64,000 nucleotides of DNA, from assembly GCA_937888365.1 (NCBI GenBank), contig CALBFA010000074.1, positions 1-64,000 on the forward strand, in the 5' to 3' direction. Numbering within the stretch: the stretch's first letter is position 1; every line of letters begins with the position of its first letter. The notes below the pieces were generated by a model. The model saw nothing but the letters and a program-made list of their open reading frames with translations. It had not been told where the DNA came from and ran no database searches. Positions 4,204 through 34,769 of this stretch are shown one piece after another. Both the position numbers and the translations under genes were made by a program. This DNA is from an uncultured Fidelibacterota bacterium (lineage in GTDB: Bacteria; Fidelibacterota; UBA8477; JABMPR01).

Positions 4204-4292
4204 CATACTCCATTTGTAACATCAATAATAACAACAACTAGCCTTGGACTCATAATCCGCAGGTTCGGGGTTCAAATCCCTGTGGGCCCACA
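4204..4292 (+). repeat. tRNA(CAT)-like 3'-half remnant, copy 2 (att-like)
   Basis: The second copy of the 89-nt unit found at 1-89. Its tRNA part is better preserved: anticodon stem-loop around CTCATAA, a T stem CGGGG/CCCTG with one G-T pair, and an acceptor strand TGGGCCC followed by ACA. The upstream GGGCATA at 4201-4207 could pair with most of that acceptor strand, but 43 nt separate it from the anticodon stem and no D stem is visible, so it does not fold as a normal tRNA. It is followed by its own terminator, different in sequence from that of copy 1. Confidence 0.5.
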
Positions 4293-4297
4293 GTTTT

Positions 4298-4333
4298 ATC
4301 CCTTATAGTTCAGCGAATTATAAGGGATTTTTT
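4298..4333 (+). terminator. Intrinsic terminator after tRNA-like copy 2
   Basis: A perfect 10-bp stem (4298-4307 with 4319-4328), an 11-nt loop and a six-T tract. It has the same layout as the terminator after copy 1 but unrelated stem sequence. Confidence 0.85.
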
Positions 4334-33279: not shown

Positions 33280-33336
33280 AACCCACCCTAACCCCTCCCA
33301 AGAGGGGAATGAGATATGTGGATAATTGAGTGTTTT
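33280..33336. repeat. Solo copy A of the DUF559-associated repeat
   Basis: A copy of the unit AACCCACC(C)CTAACCCC / TCCCAAGAGGGGAA followed by a tail GATATGTGGATAATTGAGTG. It lacks one C relative to the others. The core contains a hairpin CCCCTC-CCAA-GAGGGG. Confidence 0.8.
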
Positions 33337-33459
33337 GTTTTTCGTTTTCATATGATCTTCCAGTCTTTATTTGAAAGAAATTCCTAAAAAAGATAAGTTC
33401 AAGAAGACTGAAACTATTTCCTTTTTAATATGATTATTTTTCATCGGTAGATTCATTAT

Positions 33460-33909
33460 TTAACCTTGTTTCTCAAGCTCTAAGCTATTCCCCTCTTGGG
33501 AGGGGCTAGGGGTGGGTTTCTTTTCCCCCAAATCATTTTTGTGTTCATCAATCCAATAGTGTAAAGTCATGAGCACCTCATTTAAATTTTGTTTTATATA
33601 TAAATCGTCGAATCTCAAAAAACGAACACCTAATTTTTCTAGATTCTTCTGTCTTAAGGCGTCTCTTTTATCAGTGGAAATATGACGGTGATTTTCTCCA
33701 TCAATTTCAATAGCTAGTTTTAATTCTTTTGCATAAAAATCGACTATATAGTGATCAATCGGCCTTTGTCGGCTAAAATTAAATCCCGTCTTTTTTTGTT
33801 TTAATTCATTCCACAATATTGCTTCTGAAAAAGTCAATCTCTTTCGCAATTTAAGCGCTAGCGATTTGAGTTTAGGGTCGTAGGGCAATATGTATTTTTT
33901 AAAGGTCAT
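33460..33909 (-). CDS. DUF559 endonuclease-like protein, copy 1
   Basis: 149 residues of the DUF559 (VSR-like, PD-(D/E)xK fold) family. The nuclease core is visible: KRLTFSEAILWNELK, FSRQRPIDHYIVDFYA and LAIEIDGENHR, with Asp of IVDF and the E-x-D of IEIDG as likely metal ligands. The C-terminal tail GEKKPTPSPSQEGN is simply the translation of the flanking repeat. The gene is preceded and followed by inverted copies of the same repeat. It is identical to the copy at 34230-34679. The family is common in many phyla and its cellular role is poorly known; a mobile or repeat-linked nuclease is my inference here. Confidence 0.9.
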   Translation of the reverse strand: MTFKKYILPYDPKLKSLALKLRKRLTFSEAILWNELKQKKTGFNFSRQRPIDHYIVDFYAKELKLAIEIDGENHRHISTDKRDALRQKNLEKLGVRFLRFDDLYIKQNLNEVLMTLHYWIDEHKNDLGEKKPTPSPSQEGNSLELEKQG

Positions 33910-33949
33910 CTTTTTACTAACCCACCCCTAGCCCCTCCCAAGAGGGGAA
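33488..33949. mobile_element. DUF559 element, copy 1, bounded by 31-bp inverted repeats
   Basis: The left end 33488-33518 (starts TTCCCCTCTTGGGAGGGG) is the exact reverse complement of the right end 33919-33949. Both ends share the GCCCCTCC variant, while nearby solo repeats read ACCCCTCC, so the two ends belong together. The unit of 462 bp carries only the DUF559 gene, whose last codons lie in the left repeat. No target-site duplication is obvious. Confidence 0.6.
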
Positions 33950-34106
33950 TGAAATATGTGAATAATTGAGTGTTTTAATCATTAACCCACCCCTAACCCC
34001 TCCCAAGAGGGGAAGGAGATATGCGAATAATTGAATGTTTGAATCATTAACCCACCCCTAACCCCTCCCAAGAGGGGAAGGAGATATGTGGATAATTGAG
34101 TGTTTT
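33919..34106. repeat. Three-copy tandem array, 65-bp period
   Basis: Copies start at 33919, 33984 and 34049, exactly 65 bp apart. Each has the 31-bp GC-rich hairpin core and an AT-rich tail with ATAATTGARTGTTT and AATCATT. The first copy is also the right end of DUF559 element 1. Confidence 0.85.
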
Positions 34107-34229
34107 GTTTTTCGTTTTCATATGATCTTCCAGTCTTTATTTGAAAGAAATTCCTAAAAAAGATAAGTTCAAGAAGACTGAAACTATTTCCTTTTTAATA
34201 TGATTATTTTTCATCGGTAGATTCATTAT

Positions 34230-34679
34230 TTAACCTTGTTTCTCAAGCTCTAAGCTATTCCCCTCTTGGGAGGGGCTAGGGGTGGGTTTCTTTTCCCCCA
34301 AATCATTTTTGTGTTCATCAATCCAATAGTGTAAAGTCATGAGCACCTCATTTAAATTTTGTTTTATATATAAATCGTCGAATCTCAAAAAACGAACACC
34401 TAATTTTTCTAGATTCTTCTGTCTTAAGGCGTCTCTTTTATCAGTGGAAATATGACGGTGATTTTCTCCATCAATTTCAATAGCTAGTTTTAATTCTTTT
34501 GCATAAAAATCGACTATATAGTGATCAATCGGCCTTTGTCGGCTAAAATTAAATCCCGTCTTTTTTTGTTTTAATTCATTCCACAATATTGCTTCTGAAA
34601 AAGTCAATCTCTTTCGCAATTTAAGCGCTAGCGATTTGAGTTTAGGGTCGTAGGGCAATATGTATTTTTTAAAGGTCAT
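34230..34679 (-). CDS. DUF559 endonuclease-like protein, copy 2
   Basis: Identical in protein sequence, and by eye in DNA, to the gene at 33460-33909, lying 770 bp away in the same orientation. Same VSR-like core and same repeat-derived C-terminal tail. It follows the GH13 lipoprotein gene ending at 34770, so both copies separate two amylase genes that would otherwise be neighbours. Confidence 0.9.
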   Translation of the reverse strand: MTFKKYILPYDPKLKSLALKLRKRLTFSEAILWNELKQKKTGFNFSRQRPIDHYIVDFYAKELKLAIEIDGENHRHISTDKRDALRQKNLEKLGVRFLRFDDLYIKQNLNEVLMTLHYWIDEHKNDLGEKKPTPSPSQEGNSLELEKQG

Positions 34680-34719
34680 CTTTTTACTAACCCACCCCTA
34701 GCCCCTCCCAAGAGGGGAA
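34258..34719. mobile_element. DUF559 element, copy 2, bounded by 31-bp inverted repeats
   Basis: Same structure as copy 1: left end 34258-34288, right end 34689-34719, DUF559 gene in between on the minus strand. Beyond 34719 the sequence departs from the other repeat units (GGAAAGAGTGG), so the array stops here. Confidence 0.6.
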
Positions 34720-34769
34720 GGAAAGAGTGGTATCACAAAAAGGTTCTGAAATGACAAAGCACATAATTT

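Follow-up and report, generated by a model that had tools for sequence, protein, structure and literature searches.

Can a small nuclease gene that lies between inverted copies of a short palindrome be the agent that copies the palindrome? Few repeats of bacterial genomes are commoner than the short palindromic ones, and we know of no copying agent for most of these; to our knowledge, the GTAG-REPs alone have a known partner, the RAYT. The window considered here, by which we mean the whole stretch of 64,000 nucleotides, lies on contig C74 of a draft genome (G000; 2.53 Mb, 110 contigs) and presents such an arrangement twice. In unit 1, a gene for a DUF559 (PF04480) nuclease of 149 aa (33460–33909, minus strand) has a left end at 33488–33518 (minus), consisting of the hairpin CCCCTCTTGGGAGGGG, the linker CTA and the tail GGGGTGGGTT, and a right end at 33919–33949 (plus), which is its exact inverted copy. 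The pair can be extended to 32 bp, against a longest match of 10 in 100 shuffles. Unit 2 repeats the pattern with a left end at 34258–34288 (minus), a gene at 34230–34679 (minus, 149 aa) and a right end at 34689–34719 (plus), and the two 462-bp units (33488–33949 and 34258–34719) do not differ in a single letter, genes included. The first-pass annotation had described exact 31-bp inverted repeats around both genes, with the last codons of the gene inside the left repeat, and both points are confirmed: the last ~18 codons are translated through the repeat (..KPTPSPSQEGN..), and the stop falls 26–28 bp beyond it. By computation, the DNA hairpin of the left end folds at −6.2 kcal/mol.

The same repeat also occurs without a gene, as had been noted: at 33280–33309 (plus), where it is 30 bp long and one C short, and at 33984–34014 and 34049–34079 (both plus), in an array of 65-bp period that starts at 33918 and has the right end of unit 1 as its first member. 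These lone copies carry TAA, and all four gene-bearing ends carry TAG; the G variant that had been thought peculiar to gene-bearing ends is thus real, and it is consistent with the ends travelling together with the gene. The tandem duplication that had been proposed is likewise seen, as a block of 664 bp (33286–33949 matching 34056–34719, offset 770) that begins at the lone repeat at 33280 and again at the one at 34049, with a single difference, T at 33310 and G at 34080. Since the genome is a draft, this tandem copy could be an assembly artefact. Thirteen copies of the core hairpin, with at most one mismatch, are found in the 2.53-Mb genome, six of them outside this locus and in varied surroundings; a reversed control pattern has 0 copies in the same genome. 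Rfam matches at the repeats of the window (MIR7533, CRISPR-DR10) score far under the gathering scores and were set aside as chance. Elsewhere in the window, positions 1–129 and 4204–4332 form a direct repeat of 129 bp, 84% identical and 4.2 kb apart.

The encoded protein matches the Pfam profile of PF04480 with 89.1 bits (cut-off 20.6, E 2e-25). Pfam and NCBIfam give DUF559/PD-(D/E)xK-like families alone, and a Y1 HUH (IS200-type) transposase is absent from the unit. An AlphaFold model has a confident core (mean pLDDT 87), and the nearest solved structures by Foldseek and HMMER are NGO0050 (3hrl), a DUF559 protein of Neisseria gonorrhoeae, and the catalytic domain of I-Bth0305I (3r3p; profile E 1.8e-4, fold TM 0.72), with Vsr (1vsr) a weaker match. 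The kinship to homing endonucleases of the EDxHD/Vsr type is therefore found in both sequence and fold, and the idea that DUF559 is VSR-like holds, the resemblance being closer to I-Bth0305I than to Vsr itself. Across 54 proteins, no variation is seen at residues E29, D57, E68, D70 and H74. On model and sequence, the protein of the window is likely to be an active nuclease. The NGO0050 gene of N. gonorrhoeae lies between ~70-bp repeat copies (L075, 1320–1390 and 1930–2000) that are direct, not inverted.

Does the unit move? In a closed genome of the same phylum, G036, two units lie 1.31 Mb apart in opposite orientation and share 639 of 643 bp (99.4%), with the homology stopping at the repeat ends. 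In a congener, G042, the genes on either side of one of these units are immediate neighbours, with 91–92% identity on both sides; the G036 insert is 2240 bp long and composite, with an outer repeat and a pair of genes of the nucleotidyltransferase type in addition to the unit. The second G036 unit occupies a site without an ortholog in congeners. A simpler case is Flavobacterium sp. AS60, with a unit of 439 bp situated between purE and a gene for an M3-family peptidase (both names read from sequence); DUF559 is absent from 29 orthologous sites of congeners, the shortest gap of which measures 5 bp, and in the AS60 genome the repeat is restricted to the two ends of the unit. A target-site duplication could be defined at neither the Flavobacterium nor the G036 junctions, where ends of the form AATTG../..CAATT would mask any. 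Other sites are less clean: in Pontibacter the orthologous sites include no clean empty one, the unit being common to two species and P. populi retaining the left end and gene start only. At the G002 locus, 3 species have a filled site and others vary, and the intergenic sequence has diverged too far for junctions to be placed to the base. The mobility that the first-pass annotation had deduced from repeats and gene is thus supported, for related units, by the duplicate in G036 and the insertion in Flavobacterium, and the comparison of filled and empty sites that it had called for gives the expected difference, with a composite insert in the case of G036. As far as sequence comparison can tell, the unit moves or gets copied whole.

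Other modules visit the same sites. At the site orthologous to the G036 insert (L092, 3409–5649), genome G026 has a four-helix-bundle-like ORF between palindromic repeats (L097, 886–1501), and a third congener (L096) is empty there, which makes the site a hot spot for small modules bounded by repeats. G036 also has a second repeat family of ~93 bp (GAGTTGAGAGT..GATGAGT; ~40 copies, among them L092 3403–3495 and 5560–5652), with inverted pairs ~620 bp apart at 199586–200305 and 1194238–1194954. At the purE–peptidase site, three Flavobacterium species (L255, L259, L264) share a ~570-bp insert that is not DUF559 and has, by eye, a toxin–antitoxin-like ORF.

We consider it probable that the locus belongs to the REP/RAYT type, as a minimal repeat unit that propagates itself, and that its resident enzyme is the DUF559 nuclease (EDxHD/Vsr-like PD-(D/E)xK fold) and not a Y1 transposase. 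The main rival is that these are ordinary REP-like palindromes moved by some other enzyme and that DUF559 is a passenger or homing gene with a preference for the interior of inverted repeats. Such a gene would resemble its homing endonuclease kin, and it would not be alone, since the four-helix-bundle ORF and the GIY-YIG genes in CGTC-REPs also sit between palindromes.

The distribution of repeat and gene bears on this choice. Among 40 relatives, 70 repeat copies occur in the 21 genomes with DUF559 and 8 in the 19 without it (Mann–Whitney p=0.0023). Across 245 genomes of the phylum, tallied by hand, the full repeat is present in 11/74 genomes with DUF559 and in 3/171 that lack it (p=1.7e-4); of its 54 copies, 24 have a DUF559 gene no more than 1 kb away. 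An equal abundance in genomes without the gene, which would have spoken against the proposal of the first-pass annotation, is therefore not what is found; carriers are enriched. In three genomes (G001, G021 and G042; drafts, 89–94%) the repeat is present and DUF559 was not detected, and such cases favour the passenger. Against it, repeat type follows enzyme subtype, even within one genus and one genome. Pontibacter has two repeat types, AGAGGGG and TTGA, on separate DUF559 branches, and in the genome of the window a second contig, C66, has two DUF559 genes of another subtype. The C66 units are 90% identical over 643 columns and end in a different hairpin (CCCCTCCTTGATAAGGAGGGG), with an array of lone repeats of 126-bp period adjoining one of them; one unit is located in the mutL–miaA region. 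The two DUF559 subtypes of a single genome thus come with different repeats and different arrays. On the DUF559 tree, repeat type needs at least 12 changes, compared with 27 when shuffled, a match that owes something to host kinship. A point against the self-propagating unit comes from Pontibacter sp. Tf4, where the AS60-type repeat is dispersed in 33 copies and differs from the type of the DUF559 unit found in that genome. The confinement of the AS60 repeat to the two ends of its unit, and the TAG variant common to gene-bearing ends and missing from lone copies, also argue against a passenger, a reading that we regard as unlikely but still worth weighing.

How widely is the association found? 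A scan of 85,462 species yielded 80 loci of the DUF559 clade of the window, from more than 12 phyla, including Bacteroidota, Cyanobacteriota, Planctomycetota, Chloroflexota, Acidobacteriota, Nitrospinota and Bacillota. Flanking inverted repeats with a score of at least 28 are present at 60/80 of these loci and in 3/609 control windows (0.5%; Fisher p 8e-65), the controls being windows of identical geometry from other parts of these loci; with a stricter score of at least 32, the counts are 52/80 and 0/609 (Fisher p 4e-58). At the other 20 of the 80 loci there is no clear inverted repeat, which may reflect decay, degeneration or a link that is not obligatory. The ORF runs into the 3′ repeat in 25 of 49 scorable loci, with tails such as PTPSPSQEG. 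Arrays have a period of 65 bp in the window, and relatives show periods of 126, 105 and ~245 bp. Among named records of plasmids and chromosomes, the units are found within conserved operons, with local palindromes at both ends: one lies between sufB and sufC, and another separates the two transhydrogenase genes in Sphingomonas parapaucimobilis. Another DUF559 subtype (MKIPDHLLKRSR..) from the same bacterial family has no inverted repeats at 8/8 loci read; it is a natural negative control, and therefore the domain alone does not bring repeats.

These counts also dispose of most of the reading that everything here is artefact, the tandem copy being misassembled and the G/C-rich palindromes mere transcription terminators. 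It can point to a draft metagenome assembly in which 664 bp recur with one difference, and could apply to the tandem duplication itself only; the inverted ends recur at 60 of 80 loci, finished genomes among them, against 0.5% of the controls, and their tails follow a rule, described next, that terminators do not need. As a general account we find it hardly credible.

The ends share a layout, although their sequences vary by lineage: an outer hairpin with a C-rich arm, a short loop and a purine arm, then a linker, then an inner tail with a G-run. The linker usually has 2–6 nt; where it is longer, it often consists of a nested hairpin. The number of G's that open the tail equals that of the stem in 76% of ends, compared with 41% by permutation. 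Moreover, the tail is a mirror of the purine arm in which A is replaced by T (GGAGGGG/GGGGTGG, AGAGGGG/GGGGTGT, AAGGGGG/GGGGGTT), a rule that is obeyed at 84% of 420 positions, against 62% (maximum 69%) in permutations. The seventh position is informative: G goes with G in 30 ends, A with T in 20 and A with A in two, with none of the crossed combinations G–T and A–G, and in 13 shorter-stemmed ends it is an unpaired T. In the repeat of the window, there is a wobble T in the pyrimidine arm at this position, and the tail tracks the purine arm. When phylogeny is taken into account, five stem–tail pairs covary, all in the expected direction and too few for significance.

A direct-repeat or a Watson–Crick relation between tail and stem is ruled out, GGAGGGG going with GGGGTGG and not with GGAGGGG or its complement. 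In the purine-motif triplex code, the third strand is antiparallel, with G over G:C and T over A:T. Because the mirror rule matches this code, the simplest reading of the ends would be a fold-back of pyrimidine, purine and third strand, a putative “paperclip”. An intramolecular G-quadruplex was rejected as a general rule, four G-runs being found in the Mucilaginibacter type alone. The ends of that type (GGGAGGG..TGTA..GGGAGGGG; L172, L174, L196, L204, L205, L166) match the four-run G-quadruplex motif, and in L166 an A-to-C change has occurred in stem and tail alike.

If the unit is indeed self-propagating, the association suggests that the DUF559 nuclease itself may drive the movement or act on the ends. 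The nuclease would recognise the ends of its unit, probably when these are extruded or folded as a single strand, with the outer hairpin formed and the inner tail lying along the purine arm as a third strand. By analogy with RAYT and REP, it might then nick or cut at the folded end, after which host repair or replication would copy the whole unit, or one end, to a new place. Lone repeats would be the products of single-end copying, short arrays could arise when an end is re-copied or slips, and a recent tandem duplication between such repeats may account for the 770-bp block of the window. Legionella recombination hotspots include a segment with a transposase and DUF559, in three copies (PMC12308824), and Caulobacter VsrA, a DUF559 protein, is a Vsr-like nuclease which through its activity sets off the SOS response once a methylation is lost (PMC12907096). 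Both facts are compatible with this mechanism.

VsrA, with its ties to methylation and SOS, can also be read in favour of another rival, as can a weak PADLOC similarity of DUF559 to a methyl-directed nuclease: the units would spread purely by homologous recombination or gene conversion between existing repeats, and the nuclease would serve an unrelated role in defence or repair. The tandem duplication between repeats of the window, which supply the homology, fits such a process. Nevertheless, the Flavobacterium unit is present or absent as a whole, and the AS60 genome has no solo repeats and therefore no homologous target for recombination. Nor does recombination explain why this DUF559 clade is associated with ends and the other clade is not. 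We regard it as improbable, and the self-propagating nuclease unit remains our preferred reading.

Several known systems resemble this one. Insertion sequences and MITEs are also short units with terminal inverted repeats and gene-free derivatives, but the DUF559 unit has no DDE or other transposase, and its gene-free copies are single ends rather than end-to-end deletions; a target-site duplication, which the end sequence would hide, is not seen. The EDxHD homing endonucleases (I-Bth0305I) and Vsr are kin in fold and sequence; unlike those homing endonucleases, the DUF559 unit lies outside any intron or intein, is bounded by inverted hairpin repeats and has no conserved target gene.

The CGTC-tagged REPs are likewise short tagged palindromes that form inverted pairs, and they are described as having neither a transposase nor a dedicated enzyme (PMC3733652). 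Their sequence is different, and at the loci examined they flank GIY-YIG genes and not this DUF559 clade. By the description in PMC3733652, a CGTC-REP has a terminal CGTC and a stem of 8–9 bp starting with A/T pairs, and the repeat of the window has neither feature. DUF559 as the partner of CGTC-REPs is unsupported, the ends at the DUF559 loci read being other repeats. A GIY-YIG gene lies between inverted CGTC-type palindromes on both sides in 6/7 records read, a small sample without controls. Single-domain GIY-YIG cases with CGTC-REPs or related palindromes are L087 (1330–1850), L279, L280, L281, L282 and L284; the pairs are perfect over 31 bp in Novosphingobium (L279) and Sphingobium (L282) and of the dRS3 type in Neisseria (L280). 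In Azospirillum, a GIY-YIG unit occupies the sufB–sufC gap, which is empty in a relative. It is tempting, though speculative, to propose that DUF559 and single-domain GIY-YIG proteins are unrecognised partners of large palindrome classes (the G/C-rich “CCCCTC..GAGGGG” type and the CGTC-REPs), forming a new and broad class of nuclease-driven REPs in which the DUF559 ends would be antiparallel purine-motif triplexes read by the nuclease.

What would this mean? A nuclease of 120–150 aa with a local repeat at its ends, present in more than 12 phyla and showing presence and absence at its sites, is a concrete and testable candidate for copying palindromes. If the proposal is true, DUF559, usually annotated just as “endonuclease domain-containing protein”, would gain a biological role, and the mirror rule in its ends makes a specific, testable prediction of DNA structure. 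We found no link between DUF559 and palindromic repeats in the open-access literature, to which our search was confined.

The closest parallel is that of REPs and REPINs with their RAYTs (TnpA_REP, an IS200/IS605-like Y1 transposase), the “REPtrons”. In both, one small gene lies between inverted palindromic repeats, gene-free copies are dispersed, each enzyme subtype has its own repeat, and a hairpin is accompanied by an unpaired tag; the flanking inverted palindromes also occur elsewhere in the genome, as in a REPtron. The differences are that the enzyme here is a PD-(D/E)xK-like DUF559 protein and not a Y1 HUH transposase, that the tag is a G-run tail mirroring the stem, and that copy numbers are low (about 2–33). 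The foot of the window hairpin has no GTAG/GTRG tag and reads GGGG-CTA-GGGGTGGG. Thus, the kind of element, a gene within inverted REP-like repeats, is known from the RAYTs, and what is new, as far as the open literature shows, is the enzyme, the grammar of the repeat and the breadth of its occurrence.
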